Source: Halolamina litorea
GTDB lineage: Archaea > Halobacteriota > Halobacteria > Halobacteriales > Haloferacaceae
DNA: 64,000 nucleotides
Assembly: GCF_026616205.1 (NCBI RefSeq)
Contig: NZ_JANHGR010000002.1
Coordinates: forward strand, 124,001 to 188,000
Reading direction: 5' to 3'
Positions 45,652-54,501 of the stretch are shown piece after piece; the first letter of the stretch is position 1, and each line of letters begins with the position of its first letter. The position numbers were made by a program, and so were the translations under genes. The notes below the pieces were generated by a model, which saw nothing but the letters and a program-made list of their open reading frames with translations, was not told the origin of the DNA and did no database searches.

Positions 45652-45677
45652 GCGCCGGGCCGGGTCCGGCGCCGGTG

Positions 45678-46514
45678 TCAGTTCAGGTCCGCCCGAGTGA
45701 ACAGCGCCGTCCCGACTACCAGCGGCACCACCGTCCACACCACCAGTAGCGCGGCGAACACCCACGGCTGGACGTAGACTGGAGCGGGCGGGCTGACGGT
45801 TGCCGCGATCCCCGGGTAGTCGGCGTTCGTCGCGTGGATCGTCTCCATGACGAGCGCGCTGTAGGCGCCCGAGGGGCTGAGCCCCTGCAGGAACACGAAC
45901 CACGCCGGCATCGACTCACCCGGCGGCGCGCCGACGACCACGAGGTGGAGTCCCTGCGGAACGAGGTCCCAGAGCAGCGTCAGCCCGAGGTACGCCGTGA
46001 TCCCGACGGTCATCGCCCGCGACCGGCTGGCCGTCGCCGCCGAGATGCCGACGGCGATGCCGACGAACGCGACCCCCAGTACGGCTGTCAGGGCGGTCAC
46101 GCCGAGGAACGGCGCCAGAGGGAGGCCGCCGTAGAGCACCCACCCCACGACGCCGGCCACCAGGAAGCCAGCGACAACCCCCACCGCGACGACGGCCGCA
46201 CGGCCGAGGAACTTCCCGGCGACGACCGTCCGGCGGTTCGGCTCCAGTCCGAGCAGGAGCCGCAGGCTCCCGGACTCGCGCTCGCCGGCGAGTGCGAGGT
46301 AGGCGGCGACCAGCGCGACGATCGGGACCAGGATCGCCGCGAACTCGCTGGCGGCCCCGAGCCCTTGCAGGGGGTCGCCGCCGAGCATCGGCACCAGCAG
46401 CGGTACGCCCATCGTGGCGGCGACGAGGGCGGAGACGAAGGCGATCAGCACCCAGAGGAGCCGGGAGCGCCGGGCGTCGTCGAACTCCTTCCGGGCGACG
46501 ACGAGTGCGTTCAT
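45678..46514 (-). CDS. ABC-2 type transporter permease (NosY-like)
   Basis: A 278-residue protein with six membrane helices. The N-terminal VVARKEFDDARRSRLLWVLI and LAGERESGSLRLLLGLEPNRRTVVAGKFLGR are typical of ABC-2 permeases of the NosY group. The extracellular loop after helix 5 is long (YSALVMETIHATNADYPG...). Its ATG overlaps the last four bases of the ATPase gene, so the two form one exporter unit. Cargo is unknown. Confidence 0.9.
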   Translation of the reverse strand: MNALVVARKEFDDARRSRLLWVLIAFVSALVAATMGVPLLVPMLGGDPLQGLGAASEFAAILVPIVALVAAYLALAGERESGSLRLLLGLEPNRRTVVAGKFLGRAAVVAVGVVAGFLVAGVVGWVLYGGLPLAPFLGVTALTAVLGVAFVGIAVGISAATASRSRAMTVGITAYLGLTLLWDLVPQGLHLVVVGAPPGESMPAWFVFLQGLSPSGAYSALVMETIHATNADYPGIAATVSPPAPVYVQPWVFAALLVVWTVVPLVVGTALFTRADLN

Positions 46515-47446
46515 CGGGGCACCTCCGTGGCCCCGTCGGCTTCGGGGTGGACGTACGCCCGGAACAGGTCCTCGAGGGACGCCTGACGCGCCTCGAAGTC
46601 GAGCAGTTCGCTCTCGCTCTCCCGAATCGCGTCGAGGACTCGGAGCTTCGCCGCGGGCACGGTACAGGTAGCGGTGATCTCGTTCCCGTCGACGGCGACG
46701 GCGGAGACGCCGTCGATCGAACGCAGGTCCACGTCGGCGGGCGGCGCGTCGACGGTGACGGTGACCGTCGCGCCGGTCCCGAGGGCGTCGCGGAGGCCGT
46801 CGATGGTGTCGGTGGCGACCAGCCGACCGCGGCTGAGGATGCCGACCCGGTCACAGACCGCCTCGACCTGACTCAGCACGTGGCTGGAGAAGAACACGGT
46901 GCCGCCCGCCGCGGCGTGGTCCCGGGTGATCTCACGGATGTCCCGGATCCCGTCGGGATCGAGGCCCGACGAGGGCTCGTCGAGAATCAACAGCTCCGGG
47001 TCGCCCACCAGGGCCATCCCGAGGGCGAGGCGCTGGCTCATCCCCTTCGAGTAGCCCCCGGCCCGCCGCTCGGCGGCCGTCGAGTCGAGGCCCACGCGCC
47101 GGAGCAGGTCGTCCGGGTCGTCGTCGGCGCCCTTCAACTCGATGGCGTACTGGAGGTGTTCGCGTCCGGTGAGTCGGTCGTAGAGGCTGTAGCCGTCGGG
47201 GAGCACGCCGACCCGATCGTGGACCGCGTCGGCCTCGCTCTGGGCGTCGTAGCCCAACACCGTCGCCGTCCCAGCCGTCGGGCGCACGTAGTCGAGCAAC
47301 ACGTCGATGGTCGTCGACTTCCCGGCGCCGTTGGGGCCGAGGAAGCCGAACACCTCGCCCGCCTCGACGGTCAGGTCGAGGTCGTCGACAGCGTACACGT
47401 CGTGCCCGTAGCGCTTGGTCAGTCCCTCGACCTCGATAGCGGCCAT
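46511..47446 (-). CDS. ABC-2 transporter ATP-binding protein
   Basis: A 311-residue ATPase: Walker A GPNGAGKST, signature YSKGMSQRLALGMAL, Walker B LLILDEPSSGLDP, switch His in VFFSSHVLSQ. The C-terminal ~85 residues are the DUF4162-like domain of drug/lipid exporters. The ATG at 47446 (MAAIEVEGLTKRYG) is preferred over an extension to 47485. Upstream, 47505-47532 is AT-rich with several TATA-like words and may hold a promoter with a leader. Confidence 0.92.
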   Translation of the reverse strand: MAAIEVEGLTKRYGHDVYAVDDLDLTVEAGEVFGFLGPNGAGKSTTIDVLLDYVRPTAGTATVLGYDAQSEADAVHDRVGVLPDGYSLYDRLTGREHLQYAIELKGADDDPDDLLRRVGLDSTAAERRAGGYSKGMSQRLALGMALVGDPELLILDEPSSGLDPDGIRDIREITRDHAAAGGTVFFSSHVLSQVEAVCDRVGILSRGRLVATDTIDGLRDALGTGATVTVTVDAPPADVDLRSIDGVSAVAVDGNEITATCTVPAAKLRVLDAIRESESELLDFEARQASLEDLFRAYVHPEADGATEVPR

Positions 47447-47540
47447 TACCCACCACCTCGCGTCGCTCTCCGGTCCATACCTCACGGCTGGCCCGCGACG
47501 GGAAATAGCTTATCAATATTCTTATATTTTGACAGTGACG

Positions 47541-48392
47541 TTACTCAAAATCCGTTGAGTAGGCGTCCGGGAGCGAGACCGTGCCGTCGTCGTCGATCCT
47601 CGCGGTCAGTGTCCCGCCGTCGTGGTGGAGCGTGATCTTCAGGGCGAGCGGATCGCGCTCGACGACGTGCCGCTCGGCGTCGCCGATGAACGCCGGGAGT
47701 CGCCAGAGCGGGAGGTCCGTCACGTCGATACCTCGCTCCCAGTAGAACGCGATCACCGCCGGGTGGCCGAACAGCGCGAGTTCGACCGGGCCGTACACGC
47801 GGAGTTCACAGCGGTCACACGTCGCTACACACGCGTACTCCCCGTCCGGGCCGGCGTCGATGGTGGCCGTCGTCGTGCCGCTACAGGTCGGGCAGGTCCC
47901 GGCGACCGCCGTGTCGTACTCCCGAAGCACCCGGCGGTTGCACGAGCGCAGCGTCTCCATCGACGACCGCCCCTCGGCTTCGGCGGGCAGCAGGTCGTAG
48001 GTCACGACGGTCGTTCCACAGTCCGCACAGGCGACCGAGAGGTGGCGCTCCCGGTACGCGGCCGAGAGCGTCGTCTCCCCACACTCGGGGCAGTGGCCGT
48101 CGACGGTCGTCGGCTCGAAGGAGGGCTCCTCGGCGTAGATGCCGGACCTGATCGCCCGGACGACGCGCTCGCCGGCGCTCGTCGGGGCGTACTCGCCGTC
48201 GGACTCCGTGACGAACACGTCGGCCAGTTCCTCGAGGTGGTAGGAAAACTGGGAGCTACTGTCGATCGCCGTCCGATCGTGGAGTTCGGTAAAGGAGAGC
48301 CCGGGCTCGTCGTTCTCGACGGCCTCGACGAGCACCCGGAGGATCTCGATCCGGTGTTCGCTGCCGAGTGCGGTGAACGCGGTCCCTGTCAC
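47541..48392 (-). CDS. ArsR-like HTH regulator with multiple zinc-ribbon motifs
   Basis: 283 residues. Residues 1-85 form a winged helix (FTALGSEHRIEILRVLVEAV, LHDRTAIDSSSQFSYHLEEL). Then come four Cys pairs (CPECG, CADCG, CPTCS, CDRC) and a C-terminal domain with VELALFGHPAVIAFYWERG, a haloarchaea-specific regulator architecture. The start is a GTG at 48392. It lies immediately upstream of the ABC exporter genes on the same strand (94-bp gap) and probably controls them. The inducer is unknown; the zinc pairs are probably structural. Confidence 0.85.
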   Translation of the reverse strand: MTGTAFTALGSEHRIEILRVLVEAVENDEPGLSFTELHDRTAIDSSSQFSYHLEELADVFVTESDGEYAPTSAGERVVRAIRSGIYAEEPSFEPTTVDGHCPECGETTLSAAYRERHLSVACADCGTTVVTYDLLPAEAEGRSSMETLRSCNRRVLREYDTAVAGTCPTCSGTTTATIDAGPDGEYACVATCDRCELRVYGPVELALFGHPAVIAFYWERGIDVTDLPLWRLPAFIGDAERHVVERDPLALKITLHHDGGTLTARIDDDGTVSLPDAYSTDFE

Positions 48393-48450
48393 GGTCGCTT
48401 GTGGGTTCGTCGGCCCGCGGTTAAACGGCGCGGTGGGGCCGCGGCCCGAC

Positions 48451-49515
48451 TCAGTCCTCGCCCGAACGTAGCGCCTCGGCGTCGATCTCGCCGGCGTCGA
48501 GTTCGGCTTCGATCTCGCGGGCCGCTTGGACCATGTTCGCCGTCTTCCCGTAGGCGACCTCGCGGGGCAGCAGCTTCAGGCCGCAGTCGGGGCTGACGGT
48601 GAGTCGTTCCGGGGGCACGACCTTCAGCCCCTGCTTGATGTTCTCCTTGATCTCCTCGACGGACTCGACCTCGGCGACGTGGGCGTCGGTGACGCCGAGT
48701 GCGAGGTCGGGCTCGAACTCGGGGTCGGTGAACACGTCGATCTGTTCGTAGTCGCCGTTGGCGAGCTCCACGTCGAACTCGTCGATGGGGAAGTCGTTGA
48801 CCTCCGGATAGATCCGGGAGTAGTCGCCGTAACAGACGTGGAGCCCCACTCGCACGTCCTCGGGGATGTCCGCGACGATCCGTTCCAGACACTCCCCGAC
48901 GACGGCGTGGTCGTCGGGCGTCGTCGCCAGCGCGGGCTCGTCGATCTGGATGTAGCGGGCGCCCGCCTCGACCAGTTTCGTGACCTCCTCGTTGACCAAC
49001 TCCGCGAGGTCGTAGGCGAGTTCGGCCTCGTCGCCGTAGGCCTCGTCGAAGCTCCACGACGCCAGCGTGTAGGGCCCGGTGATCGGCACCTTCACGGGCC
49101 GGTTGGCGACGCCGGCGGTGAACTCGTACTCGTCGACCAGCCACGGCTCGTCGTACTCGAGTTCCTCGACGACGCTCGGCTTGTCGAAGTAGTTGTGGCC
49201 CCACACCTTCACCGGGCCGTTGAACTCGTAGCCCTCGATGCGTTCGGCGAAGAACTCCACCATCTCCTCGCGGCGCATCTCGCCGTCGACGACGGCGTCC
49301 AGCCCCGCACGCTCGTGTTCGTGGGTGATGAGTCGGCTGGCGTCGTCGGCGGCCTCCGCCCAGTCGTCGTCGTCGAAGTCGTGGTCGTGGTCCGCGTGGA
49401 GGTCGCTCGCGCGGTTCAGCCACGTCGGCTTCGGGTAGGAGCCGACGACAGTCGTGAGCAGGAAGTGTTCGTTCTCGTGGTCGTCGGGCTGGAACTGCGA
49501 GCGCGTGTCGGTCAT
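48451..49515 (-). CDS. metE: Methionine synthase, cobalamin-independent (MetE catalytic half)
   Basis: A 354-residue protein corresponding to the C-terminal catalytic barrel of MetE. VVGSYPKPTWLNRA at the start, QIDEPALATT, and zinc ligands in LHVCYGDY (His and Cys) and SPDCGLKLLP (Cys) are present. It transfers a methyl group from a methylated pterin to homocysteine. The start is ATG at 49515, which overlaps the end of the upstream MetE-like gene by four bases. Short archaeal MetE proteins may use a methyl donor other than polyglutamyl methyl-folate. Confidence 0.9.
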   Translation of the reverse strand: MTDTRSQFQPDDHENEHFLLTTVVGSYPKPTWLNRASDLHADHDHDFDDDDWAEAADDASRLITHEHERAGLDAVVDGEMRREEMVEFFAERIEGYEFNGPVKVWGHNYFDKPSVVEELEYDEPWLVDEYEFTAGVANRPVKVPITGPYTLASWSFDEAYGDEAELAYDLAELVNEEVTKLVEAGARYIQIDEPALATTPDDHAVVGECLERIVADIPEDVRVGLHVCYGDYSRIYPEVNDFPIDEFDVELANGDYEQIDVFTDPEFEPDLALGVTDAHVAEVESVEEIKENIKQGLKVVPPERLTVSPDCGLKLLPREVAYGKTANMVQAAREIEAELDAGEIDAEALRSGED

Positions 49516-50501
49516 CGCGCCACCTCCGGGTCCGCGGCGGTCGCAAGCGTCCGCAGTTTGGCCACGCACTTGTTCACCGGCAGGTGGAACAGCTCCGTGT
49601 TCGGCGTGAGGTAGGCCGCGTCGATCCCGCTGCTGGCCGCCTCGCGGAACGCCTCGACCCGGTCCCCGACGGCCGCGGGCTCCTCGACCCGCGTGTTCTG
49701 GCCGTCGACGACGCCCAGGGAGACCCGGTCGGTCGTCCCGTGCTCGCGGACGAGGTCCGTCGCCGCTTCCTCGGCGGTGACGAGGTCGTAGCCGAGCGCG
49801 TCGGCGTCCGTGTCGAGCAAGTGGCCGTGGAGCGCCTCGTCGAACGTGCCCCAGTAGCCCTGCACCACGACCTCGGCGTCAACGGCGCCGACGACGGCGT
49901 CGATGGCGTCGCGCACCCGCTCGTGCTCGCCGCTCTCGGGGGCGTCGGTCACGAGACTCGGCTCCAACAGGTACAGCGTCTCGACGGCGTCGGGGAACGC
50001 CGCGGCCTCGCCGGCGAGGAACTCGGCGACGGCGTCGAGGAACGTCGCCCGGTCGCCGTAGTACTCGTCGGTCGCGAGCGCCGACAGCGAGTAGGGACCG
50101 GGCAGCACCGCCTGCAGGTCGTCGGTCAGCCCCGCCGCCTTCCGGAGGTCCGCGGCCACGTCGCCGCTCTCGGTCAGTTCGTCGGTCACCACCGGCTCGC
50201 GGTAGAAGTTGTTGTTGTCGTAGTAGCGGACGATGCCCTCCGTCCGGACGCTCTCGTGGACACAGAGCGGATGGGCGAGGAAGTCGTCCCAGCGTGCCTG
50301 TCCTTCGACGACGCGGTCGAGGCCGGCGTCGTGCTGGTCGTCGATCAGCCGTTCGCGGGCGGCGTCGTACGTCTCGGTCAGTTCCGGGGGCTCCTCGCCG
50401 CCGATCAGGTCCTCCTTCTGGTGGCCCTTCAGGTCCGCGAGCCGATCCCGCTGGGCGTCGGGCAGCGGAAAGAGGCCGAGCGTCGACGCGATTCGTTGCA
50501 T
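49512..50501 (-). CDS. MetE-like protein lacking zinc ligands (partner of catalytic MetE)
   Basis: A 329-residue barrel related to MetE (STLGLFPLP, AVLPGPYSLSALATDEYYGDR, YLLEPSLVTDAPE, VSLGVVDGQNTRVEEP). The positions of zinc ligands read VVVQGYWGTFDE and TPNTELFHLP, without the His-Cys and Cys ligands of its neighbour. It resembles the N-terminal half of bacterial MetE, a duplicated barrel that has lost zinc but helps bind the pterin. The 4-bp overlap implies equal production and a two-subunit enzyme (inference). Confidence 0.82.
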   Translation of the reverse strand: MQRIASTLGLFPLPDAQRDRLADLKGHQKEDLIGGEEPPELTETYDAARERLIDDQHDAGLDRVVEGQARWDDFLAHPLCVHESVRTEGIVRYYDNNNFYREPVVTDELTESGDVAADLRKAAGLTDDLQAVLPGPYSLSALATDEYYGDRATFLDAVAEFLAGEAAAFPDAVETLYLLEPSLVTDAPESGEHERVRDAIDAVVGAVDAEVVVQGYWGTFDEALHGHLLDTDADALGYDLVTAEEAATDLVREHGTTDRVSLGVVDGQNTRVEEPAAVGDRVEAFREAASSGIDAAYLTPNTELFHLPVNKCVAKLRTLATAADPEVAR

Positions 50502-50678
50502 GTGGTCGAAAGGCAGGGAACGACTCGTAATAATATTTGCCTTCGCCCGTATTCTCCTCGGTTATCCTATATCGGAGGGCTAAACCCTCTCGTTGGGGCT
50601 TGTAAGTGGCTAAAACAGCGTATACTGGGGAAATCCTCCGAACCGTGGTTTGAAGTCCTCACGGTGGAGTGTGTCGGT
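50502..50678. promoter_or_regulatory. Divergent promoter region between metE and mer operons
   Basis: 177 bp serving both directions. For the metE pair CAAATATTATTA (minus strand, 50528-50539) lies about 32 nt upstream of the start. For mer, TATACT at 50621-50626 or TAAAAC at 50611-50616 would give a 30-40 nt leader. An inverted repeat GAGGG-CTAAA-CCCTC at 50575-50589 sits between the two promoters and could be an operator for joint control. Confidence 0.5.
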
Positions 50679-51677
50679 ATGGACGAGAGCGACGACGGCA
50701 CGATCGGCGTCGAGTTGACCCCCGAGATGCCGGTTCGGTCGGTGGCGGACCTCGCGGTGCGTGCGGAGGAGGTCGGCTTCGACACCGTGTTCGTCTCCGC
50801 ACACTACAACAACCGCGACCCGTTTCTCGCGCTCTCGCGGGTGGCGTCGGCGACGGAGTCGGTGCGGTTGGGGCCGGGCGTCGTCAACCCCTACGAGACC
50901 CACCCCGTATCGCTTGCTTCGAACGTCGCGACGCTCGACGAACTCGCCGACGGGCGGGCGGTGTTCGGTATCGGCGCGGGCGACCCCTCGACGCTCGCCA
51001 ACCTCGGCATCGAACGGGAGCGCCCGCTCCGGCGCGTGTTGGAGACGGTCCGCGTCTCGAAACGGCTCTGGCGCGGCGAGCGCGTCGACCACGACGGCAC
51101 GTTCACGGCGGTCGACGCCGGCCTCAACTACGAGGTCGGCCCCATCCCGGCCTACGTCGGTGGACAGGGCCCGCACATGATCCGGATGGCGGCGAAACAC
51201 GCCGACGGCGTTTTGGTAAACGCCTCCCACCCGGACGACTTCGCGTGGGCCGCCGAGCAGGTCGAGACAGGCCTCGCCGACCGCCCCGACGACCACGGCC
51301 CCTTCGACTTCGCGGCGTTCGCCAGCGTGAGCGTCGCCGCCGACGCCGACGCGGCCCGCGAGGCCGCCCGGCCGCCCGTCGCGTTCGTCACTGCGGGGGC
51401 GGCCCCGCCGGTACTGGACCGACACGGGATCGACCACGACCGCGCCGAGGCCGTCGGCGACGCCATCACCGCCGGGGAGTTCTCGACGGCGTTCGACGCC
51501 GTGACCCCCGCCATGATCGACGCGTTCTGTGTCGCCGGCACGCCCGACACCGTCGCCGAGCGCATCGAGGCGGTGCTCGACTACGCCGACAGCTTCGTCG
51601 CCGGCTCGCCGCTAGGGCCCGACCGCGAGGCGGCCATCGAGATGCTCGGCTCGGTGTTCGACCGGGTGCGGGCATGA
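50679..51677 (+). CDS. mer: 5,10-methylenetetrahydromethanopterin reductase-like F420-dependent enzyme
   Basis: A 332-residue bacterial-luciferase-like (LLM) F420 enzyme. GVELTPEMPVRSVADLAVRAE, FDTVFVSAHYNNRDPFLALS, VRLGPGVVNPYETHPV, VFGIGAGD and PAYVGGQGPHMIRMAAKHAD follow the Mer pattern. Mer reduces methylene to methyl on a tetrahydropterin using reduced F420. The assignment is strengthened by the downstream methanopterin genes and the divergent metE pair. Its TGA overlaps the next ATG (ATGA), so the operon is coupled. Another LLM oxidoreductase is the alternative. Confidence 0.85.
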   Translation: MDESDDGTIGVELTPEMPVRSVADLAVRAEEVGFDTVFVSAHYNNRDPFLALSRVASATESVRLGPGVVNPYETHPVSLASNVATLDELADGRAVFGIGAGDPSTLANLGIERERPLRRVLETVRVSKRLWRGERVDHDGTFTAVDAGLNYEVGPIPAYVGGQGPHMIRMAAKHADGVLVNASHPDDFAWAAEQVETGLADRPDDHGPFDFAAFASVSVAADADAAREAARPPVAFVTAGAAPPVLDRHGIDHDRAEAVGDAITAGEFSTAFDAVTPAMIDAFCVAGTPDTVAERIEAVLDYADSFVAGSPLGPDREAAIEMLGSVFDRVRA

Positions 51678-52513
51678 GCCGTCCGCCCGGCGCGAACGCC
51701 GAACTGGCGCTCCTGCTCGAACTCTCGGGGACGCCCAAACCGGGGAACGTCGACCGCCAGCGGGAGTACGCCGACCTCACGTTCGAGCAGTTCCTCGCCG
51801 GCGCGGTCGGGGCCCGCGCGGGTCTCGACGACGCGGCCGACGGCGCGGCCGTCGGCGACGCCTTCGAGACGGCGGTCGCAGGGATGGCCCGACAGGACGG
51901 TGGGAACACCCAGTTCGGCGCGTTGTTGCTGCTGACGCCGCTGGTCCGGGCGGCCGCGACCGACCGCCTCACGCCCGACGGCGCGGCCGCGGTGGTGGAC
52001 GAAACGACCGTCGACGACGCCGCGGGGTTCTACCGCGCGTTCGACCACGTGGACGTGTTCGTCGACGAGCCACCGGACTCGATGGACGACCTCGACGTTC
52101 GCCGGGGGAGCGACGCGGTCCCCGCCCTCCGCGAGCGGGGGCTCACGCTCGCCGACGTGATGGCCGCGAGCGCGCCGGCCGACGGCGTCGCCGCCGAGTG
52201 GACGGCGGGCTTCGAGCGGACGTTCGCCGCCGCGGCGTCGCTCCTCGACGCCGACGGGCCCCTCAGCGAGCGGGTACCGACGGTCTTTCTCGACCTGCTC
52301 GCGGCCGAACCGGACAGCCTGATCGCCAAACGGCACGGGGAGAGCGTGGCCGCCGAGGTCACCGAGCGCGCCGCCGAACTCCAGGGGGCCGACCCCGAGG
52401 CCGTCACCGAGTGGGCCGACGAACTCGTCGCCGACGGTATCAACCCCGGCACCACGGCCGACGTGACTGCCGCGGCGCTGTTCGTCGCACTCGAACGAGG
52501 GCTGGCGGTATGA
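51674..52513 (+). CDS. Triphosphoribosyl-dephospho-CoA synthase (CitG/MdcB)-like protein
   Basis: A 279-residue all-helical protein: LLLELSGTPKPGNVDRQREYADLTFEQFLAG, QDGGNTQFGALLLLTPLVRA, DTLIAKRHG-like segment DSLIAKRHGE and DGINPGTTADVTAAALFVALE are CitG-family signatures. In bacteria CitG joins ATP-derived ribose to dephospho-CoA. No citrate or malonate lyase is present here; instead it is embedded in a methanopterin operon, so a ribosyl-phosphate transfer onto the pterin side chain is a reasonable hypothesis. It is coupled by ATGA overlaps on both sides. Confidence 0.85.
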   Translation: MSRPPGANAELALLLELSGTPKPGNVDRQREYADLTFEQFLAGAVGARAGLDDAADGAAVGDAFETAVAGMARQDGGNTQFGALLLLTPLVRAAATDRLTPDGAAAVVDETTVDDAAGFYRAFDHVDVFVDEPPDSMDDLDVRRGSDAVPALRERGLTLADVMAASAPADGVAAEWTAGFERTFAAAASLLDADGPLSERVPTVFLDLLAAEPDSLIAKRHGESVAAEVTERAAELQGADPEAVTEWADELVADGINPGTTADVTAAALFVALERGLAV

Positions 52514-53082
52514 GCGCCGACTGGCCGGTCGAACTGCGCGGCGTCACCGAGAGCGTCGTCGCCACGCTCGGCCCGAACGGCCGCTGGAACGCCGCCGCGC
52601 TCGGCCTCCACGCCGGCTCACCGGTGACCGCGAAGACGTGGGGGAACACCCGGACCCGCAGGAACTTCCACCGACAGGGCGGCGGCGTCGTCCAGTTCAC
52701 GCGCGATCCGGAGCTGTTCACCGAGGCCGCACTCACCGTTCACGAGGGTGACGAGCCGGTGTTCGACGGCGTCGACGCCTGGGTCGAGGTCGACGTCGAG
52801 CGCGTCGCCGCCGGCGAAGAGGACGGAACGGAGTGGGAGGAGTGGCGGCTGACCCCCGTCGACGCCGGCGTCGAGCGACGGGTCGTCCCGACGACGAACC
52901 GCGGGTTCGCCGCGGTCGTCGAGGCGACCGTCGCGGCCTCGCGGCTCGGCGTCGAGGCCTTCGATCAGGCGGAACTCAGATCGCGCCTCGACTACTTCAC
53001 CGAGGTCGTGCGGACCTGTGGCGGCGAGGCGGAACGGGACGCCATTGACCGCGTGCTCGAACTCACGGAGGAGGCACGATGA
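52510..53082 (+). CDS. DUF447 family protein (flavin-reductase-like split barrel)
   Basis: A 190-residue protein. WPVELRGVTESVVATLGPNGRWNAAALGL, WGNTRTRRNFHRQGGGVVQFTRD, LFTEAAL and NRGFAAVVEATVAASRLGVE are typical of DUF447, which adopts an FMN-binding split-barrel fold. The family co-occurs with methanopterin biosynthesis genes in methanogens and methylotrophs, as here. The specific step is unknown. Its ATG overlaps the TGA of the upstream gene by four bases. Confidence 0.88.
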   Translation: MSADWPVELRGVTESVVATLGPNGRWNAAALGLHAGSPVTAKTWGNTRTRRNFHRQGGGVVQFTRDPELFTEAALTVHEGDEPVFDGVDAWVEVDVERVAAGEEDGTEWEEWRLTPVDAGVERRVVPTTNRGFAAVVEATVAASRLGVEAFDQAELRSRLDYFTEVVRTCGGEAERDAIDRVLELTEEAR

Positions 53083-53107
53083 CCACACCACCGCACCCGG
53101 GGCGCCG

Positions 53108-54076
53108 ATGACCGCCGTCACCGTCTCCGTCGGGGCGCGGCTCCACTTCGGGTTCACGAACCTCTCGCTGGCACACGAGCGCCTCTACGGGAGTCTCGGG
53201 GTCGCCCTGGAACGCCCCCGGGTCACGGTGACTGCACGACCGGCCGAGACGGTCGCGTGTTCGTACGACCCGGCACGACCAGCCGTGGCGCGGATCGTCG
53301 ACCTGTTGGACGTTCCCGGAGCCAGCGTCAGCGTCGAGGAGACGCTGCCACGCCACGTCGGCCTCGGGAGCGGCACCCAGACCGCGCTGGCGACGCTCTC
53401 GGCGGTCGCCCGCGCGTACGACCGTGACCCGGCCGTCCGTGAGCGCGCGCCGGCGCTGGATCGCGGGGGCCGCAGCGGCGTCGGCGTCGCGACGTTCGAA
53501 CGCGGGGGGTTCGTCCTCGACGGCGGCCACCCGACGGCGGCGTTCACCCCCACCCGCCCCGACCGCGGCGAGTGGTCGGTGCCGCCGATCACCAGCCAGC
53601 GGTCGATCCCCGACCACTGGCGGTTCCTGCTCGTGATCCCCGACGTTTCGCCCGGGACGAGCGGTGACGCTGAGGACACGAGCATGCGTGCGACGGTCGA
53701 ACGCGCCGATCCCGGTATCGCCGACCGCATCGCGGGGGTCGTCGTCCGACGTGTCCTCCCGGCGCTGGCTGACGGCGACGCGACGGGGTTCGGTGCCGCC
53801 GTCGACGAGGTCGGCCGACTGAACGGCGAGTGGTACGCCGACGAGCAGGGGGGTGTCTATCGGGCGTCGATCGGTGCCGTCGTCCGCGCGTTGCGGGACG
53901 CCGACGCCGTCGCTGGCGCGGGTCAGTCCTCGTGGGGGCCGACCGTCTACGGCGTCACTACCGCTGCAGAGGCGGGCGCCGCGCGGCGGGCGGGCCAGCG
54001 AGCCCTCGACGCGGCCGGCGTCGACGGCCGCGTCTCAGTCGTCCGCCCCCGGAACGCCGGGGCCACGGTGGAGTGA
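53108..54076 (+). CDS. mptG: Beta-ribofuranosylaminobenzene 5'-phosphate synthase
   Basis: A 322-residue GHMP-superfamily enzyme. VSVGARLHFGFTNLS at the N-terminus, LYGSLGVALERPRV, the glycine-rich PRHVGLGSGTQTALA (about residues 78-92), RGGRSGVGVATFERGGFVLDGG and VSPGTSG are the RFAP synthase pattern. It condenses p-aminobenzoate with PRPP, the first committed step of methanopterin synthesis. The ATG at 53108 is 25 nt after the DUF447 stop; an overlapping ATG at 53079 opens only a 10-codon frame. It is the last gene of the operon. Confidence 0.9.
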   Translation: MTAVTVSVGARLHFGFTNLSLAHERLYGSLGVALERPRVTVTARPAETVACSYDPARPAVARIVDLLDVPGASVSVEETLPRHVGLGSGTQTALATLSAVARAYDRDPAVRERAPALDRGGRSGVGVATFERGGFVLDGGHPTAAFTPTRPDRGEWSVPPITSQRSIPDHWRFLLVIPDVSPGTSGDAEDTSMRATVERADPGIADRIAGVVVRRVLPALADGDATGFGAAVDEVGRLNGEWYADEQGGVYRASIGAVVRALRDADAVAGAGQSSWGPTVYGVTTAAEAGAARRAGQRALDAAGVDGRVSVVRPRNAGATVE

Positions 54077-54199
54077 TCCAGGACGGCCTCGCGGCTGGAT
54101 CACGTATCGCCAGCCCCGATTCGGGGCGTCCGTTACGACGACGCCGTCGCTCGTGGGCGTGTGAAAACGGGTTGTCGCCTTCCGGCGACGGGAAAACCG

Positions 54200-54394
54200 T
54201 TAGTTGCGGACGACGTTCGTCGCGCGGGGGCCCTTGTCGGCCTGTTCAATGTCGAATTCTACCTCCTCACCCTCCTCCAGGTCGGGGCCACCGACGTCTT
54301 CCATGTGGAAGAACACGTCGTCGTCCGCGTCCTCAGTCGAGATGAAACCGTAGCCGCCTGTGTCGTTGAAGAAATCAACCGTACCGTTTGCCAT
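54200..54394 (-). CDS. cspA: Cold-shock domain protein
   Basis: A 64-residue OB-fold protein: GTVDFFNDTGGYGFIST (RNP1 region), DVFFHMEDV (RNP2) and the acidic end PRATNVVRN. The lysine usual in GTVKWF is Asp here, as in acidic halophilic versions. It binds single-stranded nucleic acid. The start MANGTVDFF is preferred over an ATG three codons upstream. GTTATCCC on the minus strand about 30 nt upstream may be the TATA element. Confidence 0.93.
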   Translation of the reverse strand: MANGTVDFFNDTGGYGFISTEDADDDVFFHMEDVGGPDLEEGEEVEFDIEQADKGPRATNVVRN

Positions 54395-54501
54395 TGCATA
54401 CAAACGTACAGCCTATCACGGGATAACGCTTGCGAGGGTCGTGGTACCACGGGGGTTCGTAGACGAATGTCCGCCCGTACCTCCGCACTCGGGCGATTCG
54501 C

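Follow-up and report, generated by a model that had tools for sequence, protein, structure and literature searches.

Gene content of the locus

We analysed a stretch of 64,000 nucleotides of the Halolamina litorea genome (contig NZ_JANHGR010000002.1, positions 124,001 to 188,000; hereafter the window), which carries a block of six one-carbon genes. In this block, a split metE pair on the minus strand diverges over 177 bp from mer, a citG-like gene, a DUF447 gene and an mptG homologue on the plus strand. Comparison with other genomes indicated that the six genes very probably work as one unit, and that here they were acquired from another lineage. The features of the locus were as follows.

48451-49515, minus strand: catalytic subunit of MetE, split type (354 aa; NF003317, 539 bits, cut-off 406; zinc ligands HxC, E and C present)
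49512-50501, minus strand: N-terminal subunit of MetE, split type, methyl-pterin-binding; ATGA overlap with the catalytic gene
50502-50678, no strand: divergent intergenic region of 177 bp, with the metE promoter element GCAAATATTA about 40 bp ahead of the metE start
50679-51677, plus strand: mer, F420-dependent methylene-pterin reductase (332 aa; NF002619, 474 bits, cut-off 276)
51674-52513, plus strand: CitG-like protein of archaeal type, triphosphoribosyl-dephospho-CoA synthase superfamily (279 aa; PF01874, 220 bits, cut-off 27; PDB 3h9p)
52510-53082, plus strand: DUF447 protein (190 aa; two profiles, 74 and 55 bits, cut-offs 24 and 24.8; kin of structures 2iml, 2ptf and 2nr4)
53079-53111, plus strand: 10-codon open reading frame (MTTPPHPGRR) with ATGA at both ends, spanning the DUF447 stop to the mptG start
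53108-54076, plus strand: mptG homologue, beta-RFAP/RHP synthase family, GHMP fold (322 aa; TIGR00144 and residue checks)
48414-54139, no strand: inserted xenologous cassette of 5.7 kb, whose flanks are 45 bp apart in the same-genus genome G042
47541-48392, minus strand: left flank, winged-helix regulator with DUF7347/DUF7351, native and outside the cassette

Coordinates and profile matches confirmed what a preliminary description, made from the sequence without database searches, had reported: mer, the citG-like gene, DUF447 and mptG are consecutive, with ATGA overlaps joining the first three, and the two-gene MetE pair is divergent over 177 bp. A further ATGA overlap joins the two metE genes, and the small reading frame at 53079-53111 may couple DUF447 to mptG.

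Mer scored above the PRK02271/NF002619 cut-off and slightly under that of TIGR03555 (326 against 349 bits). The CitG-like protein belongs over its whole length to the same Pfam family (PF01874) as the CitG and MdcB synthases, enzymes in which a ribosyl unit is transferred from ATP. It differs from them in being paired with DUF447, in scoring far under the lyase-type cut-offs of the MdcB and CitG equivalogs (24 against 282 and 23 against 272 bits) and in the absence of citrate or malonate lyase partner genes from the cassette, the only region searched for them. As for MetE, the archaeal split form has been reported to be the only methionine synthase in most halophilic archaea, with methyl-tetrahydrofolate or another methyl pterin as its predicted substrate (PMC7857596). 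The window pair is like this system in having the catalytic and N-terminal halves as two adjacent genes, and unlike it in sharing a cassette with a reductase and presumed carrier genes.

The gene set is inherited and lost together

Next, we surveyed 97 Halobacteria genomes from 44 genera. The same 94 genomes had mptG, citG, DUF447, mer and canonical split metE, all of them, and the same three had none; these were G001 and G007, from one genus, and G018, from another. The chance of one further family matching this pattern was 7e-6 if the genomes are taken as independent, and 1e-3 when only two loss lineages in 44 genera are counted. The usual haloarchaeal setting of the citG-DUF447 pair is a cofD-g7-citG-DUF447 operon, where g7 is a Dus-like gene (TIGR00736). 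At this operon, G018 has 84 bp where about 2.3 kb with citG-DUF447 sits in a congener, and the deletion edge in G007 is a different one, with cofD and g7 kept in both. Because the edges differ, we regard the two losses as independent.

Mch was found in 97 of 97 genomes, and was rejected as a member of the module for this reason. A FolCP-type dihydropteroate synthase (DHPS) was present in all 23 genomes tested, the three lacking the set included. The retention of folate synthesis and Mch in the face of this joint loss indicates that only genomes without the Mer/split-MetE route can do without the set. The gene g7 was likewise rejected as a further pathway member, since all three set-less genomes keep it and two set-bearing ones do not have it.

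The preliminary description had proposed conserved linkage as a test, expecting the order mer-citG-DUF447-mptG-metE across Halobacteria. This order was not conserved: only citG-DUF447 was always adjacent (94/94, on the same strand), and the full six-gene block was found, among the 94 genomes with the genes, in that of the window only. Linkage therefore failed as gene order and held as co-inheritance, and the proposed tie of mptG, citG and DUF447 to Mer and MetE was borne out by the identical presence and absence in the 97 genomes as well as by the joint replacement described below.

In G001 and G007, we found a MetF-type fusion protein whose C-terminal part is rich in cysteine, together with a lone, divergent MetE catalytic half. 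In G007 these lie at L058:4942-6498 and L060:5619-6704, the MetF-type protein having 518 aa and the MetE catalytic subunit no adjoining N-half; G001 is the same. A corrinoid methyltransferase of 285 aa also occurs in the genus, as does another, short MetF beside FolD and an MtgA/MtrH-like gene (L059, L367). G018 shows neither MetF nor canonical MetE and is probably a methionine auxotroph.

Scattered native genes were replaced by a foreign cassette

Window positions 45677-48414 and 54139-54451 align to stretches of the congener G042 that are only 45 bp apart, and thus about 5.7 kb with just the six genes was inserted. The native sites were examined in the window genome. That of mer is empty, with 17 bp left, and so is that of citG-DUF447, with 29 bp left; 404 bp stand in place of 1.5 kb at the mptG site, and the metE site has lost the catalytic half but keeps an orphan, shortened metE-N. 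The orphan is an open frame of 290 aa on chromosome contig C1 (L173:13585-14457). Each cassette gene is single-copy in the window genome.

The cassette proteins were 59-66% identical to same-genus orthologues (78-81% for the MetE catalytic half), as compared with 79-93% for congeners among themselves. In a concatenated tree, the cassette fell beside a genome from a different family (95 support), and the approximately unbiased (AU) test rejected its placement within the genus of the window (p=0.003); with the metE catalytic half by itself, such a placement was not rejected (p=0.21). The third-position base composition of the cassette was unremarkable, and no donor with the same block was found among the 97 genomes and 80 further named loci. 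Collectively, the block was acquired from a lineage of another family, and the scattered native copies were replaced and lost. Such a replacement of a scattered pathway by one foreign cassette, with the loss of nearly all native copies, is instructive for the spread of operons and modules.

The mptG homologue and its relatives

The mptG homologue passed the family-level profile TIGR00144 (139 bits, cut-off 113.5), as did those of 93 of the 97 haloarchaea. Its residues were compared with ForT, for which a complex with phosphoribosyl pyrophosphate (PRPP) has been solved (PMC8183095), and with the Methanothermobacter thermautotrophicus (MTH) enzyme, for which mutants were described (PMC6787355). 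The PRPP-site residues R11, H83, T90, R119 and S123 are kept (R19, H99, T106, R135 and S139 in ForT), and so is the aromatic-acid arginine R25 (R26 in MTH). All six were found in 30 of 30 haloarchaeal and 25 of 25 methanogen sequences, T90 being S in two methanogens. Residues Y27 and R122 of the haloarchaea are unlike those of methanogens; relatives in methanopterin operons also have R122, with F at Y27. Near the active site, N18, Y27 and the loop 236-243 are specific to haloarchaea, whose proteins form their own clade (99 support). Hence, what is shared with the MptG of tetrahydromethanopterin synthesis in methanogens and methylotrophs is the family, the R, H, T, R and S of the PRPP site and the aromatic-acid R, whereas the separate clade, the N found by nearly all haloarchaea at the MTH D19 position, the extra loop and a score under the equivalog level set the haloarchaeal proteins apart.

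The preliminary description had stated that this enzyme commits p-aminobenzoate to methanopterin rather than folate. That statement is itself uncertain, as recent structural literature names the family RHP synthase, with a hydroxybenzene product (PMC8183095).

The closest relative outside the haloarchaea (37%) came from a Synergistaceae metagenome-assembled genome (L262), in the operon FwdB-FwdA-MptA/HPPK-DHPS-DUF447-MptG-FTR-FwdC-Mch-MptN, where DUF447 and MptG overlap. The order in Bathyarchaeota is DUF447-MptG-DHPS. From these loci, DUF447 directly ahead of mptG, as in the window, is a recurrent methanopterin arrangement. The bacterial methanofuran/methanopterin operon (L262 type) resembles the cassette in its DUF447-mptG pair and also includes Mch; unlike the cassette, it has FTR and formylmethanofuran dehydrogenase, has no Mer or MetE in the part fetched, and its carrier serves formyl transfer. 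In most methanogen loci examined, citG and DUF447 are adjacent, often with g7, and the CitG-like protein is a near-universal single gene in the archaeal phylum (150 of 157 genomes), paired with DUF447. Thus, both DUF447 beside mptG and CitG beside DUF447 occur in methanopterin users too; the haloarchaea differ from these in having folate synthesis alongside and no recognised methanopterin-type DHPS (PF00809 search only). In the literature available to us, no paper tying CitG or DUF447 to methanopterin was found.

On the methanogen side, four genomes (G168, G136, G160 and G184; L146-L149) had no canonical mptG, only a distant homologue (69-80 bits) without the aromatic-acid arginine; citG-like is retained in them, and so is DUF447 wherever it was checked.

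A putative second carrier for methionine synthesis

With moderate confidence, we favour the explanation that the block is a complete, self-sufficient one-carbon module for methionine, with a methanopterin-type pterin for Mer and MetE and folate elsewhere. MptG would join PRPP to an aromatic acid, the CitG-like protein would add a ribosyl-phosphate unit, DUF447 would contribute some step, perhaps flavin-linked, and a DHPS encoded elsewhere would attach the pterin, so that the three proteins would make or finish the carrier. Mer with F420H2 would then reduce its methylene form to the methyl form, and split MetE would hand the methyl group to homocysteine. Folate, made through FolCP, and Mch would cover the other one-carbon needs; two carriers are favoured because every genome tested has folate synthesis as well. 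In the window genome, the foreign cassette would have replaced this whole module.

We infer the chemistry of the carrier, the step of each enzyme and the dedication to methionine from the observed co-occurrence, co-loss, xenologous replacement, active-site conservation and operon context of relatives. The sequence evidence leans modestly towards a methanopterin-type product. The transfer of a ribosyl-phosphate unit by the CitG-like protein, proposed from family chemistry and context, is possible rather than probable. That the carrier serves mainly methionine, as had been suggested for this stretch, is supported by the survival of Mch and folate synthesis where the set was lost. Taken as a whole, a wider reading is plausible but tentative: haloarchaea might run folate for general purposes together with a "halopterin", a methanopterin-type carrier not yet described, which MptG, the CitG-like protein and DUF447 would make and only Mer and split MetE would use, for methionine; its synthesis and utilisation genes would be a portable unit, swappable as a cassette between lineages, and the archaeal CitG-like and DUF447 proteins would be missing enzymes of methanopterin side-chain synthesis. 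In this way, two uncharacterised families would be given a pathway, and the case suggests that salt-loving archaea keep a second one-carbon carrier beside folate for methionine.

Several points weigh against a methanopterin-type carrier. According to a published account that cites earlier analyses, the haloarchaeal carrier is tetrahydrofolate and enzymes specific to methanopterin are lacking, and its authors consider HVO_2628, the mptG homologue of Haloferax, unlikely to make RFAP (PMC8305020); the proposal of the preliminary description thus runs counter to published curation. The mptG homologue scored under the functional equivalog NF040726 (167 against 328 bits), so "beta-RFAP synthase" is a family-level name only. 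MTH D19 corresponds to N in the window protein and in 28 of 30 haloarchaeal sequences, and to S in the other two. Only three set-less genomes were found among the 97, from about two events. Moreover, no DHPS of the DUF6513 type, which is that of methanopterin operons, turned up in the haloarchaea examined, with PF00809 only and no dedicated search. On the other hand, a relative inside a clear methanopterin operon was also under the NF040726 cut-off (200 bits), and D19N lowered but did not abolish the activity of the methanogen enzyme (PMC6787355). Our evidence speaks against the published claim that enzymes specific to methanopterin are missing from haloarchaea.

The PF00809 matches in the 23 genomes were of FolCP and FolP2 type only. 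FolP2, a second DHPS, was considered as the joining enzyme and fits only partly, being present in most genomes, missing from G001, G007 and G021, and kept in G018. A Haloferax transposon screen, with no methionine auxotroph among 16 mutants (PMC4300041), says nothing either way.

If folate were the only carrier, Mer and MetE would use methyl-tetrahydrofolate, and the mptG homologue, the CitG-like protein and DUF447 would do something unrelated. This would agree with the published assignment (PMC8305020), with its doubts on HVO_2628, with FolCP in all genomes tested and with Mch in genomes without mptG, where it presumably uses folate. We consider it unlikely, as it leaves unexplained the joint loss of the three genes with mer and canonical metE, their joint replacement as one cassette and the kept active site. 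The co-loss and the cassette replacement are direct comparative evidence against an unrelated function, and this bears on open annotation issues, proteins of the HVO_2628 type and the genes for the one-carbon carrier of haloarchaea, all of which curators now assign to folate.

The same co-loss and co-replacement would also suit a modified folate, such as a pteroate carrying a ribosyl group or some other decoration, or a different cofactor that Mer, MetE or both need. The haloarchaea-specific residues near the active site and the presence of FolP2 in most genomes, with its absence from G001 and G007, are in line with this. However, the PRPP and aromatic-acid residues are all conserved and the operons of close relatives are ordinary methanopterin ones, and we hold this alternative to be about as improbable as folate alone.

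The remaining two are very unlikely. A role of the CitG-like protein and DUF447 in coenzyme F420 synthesis, to which their operon with cofD could point, as could the location of native mer after cofE in those congeners that were examined, was rejected because genomes without citG-DUF447 keep cofD and the window pair is separated from cofD, g7 and cofE, none of which moved; the shared operon is better explained by the need of Mer for F420. That the genome relocated genes it already had, or that the block is an artefact of assembly or contamination, might be suspected since the swap was seen in one 4-contig draft genome only and no integrase or flanking repeats surround the block, but both flanks match the congener on one contig, the proteins are far from those of congeners and fall with another family in the tree, and there is one copy per gene with the native sites empty.

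The metE promoter and minor observations

The metE promoter element (ATAACT ... GCAAATATTAAGCGTCGGCATT, about 40 bp ahead of the start) was strongly conserved in 33 haloarchaeal metE upstream regions (loci L044-L305), and was not found upstream of mer in other genomes. Around the block, no operator repeats were detected beyond GC-rich codon noise. The earlier suggestion that supply and use are controlled together is therefore not supported beyond the window genome. MetE matches with an in-frame TAG were observed in three genomes (G069:C1:18508-19515, G049:C26:40659-41669 and G021:C16:32624-33604) and may mark the end of a frame, a pseudogene or a recoded stop. Finally, G068 contains two full mer copies (C1:308799 and 1297111).

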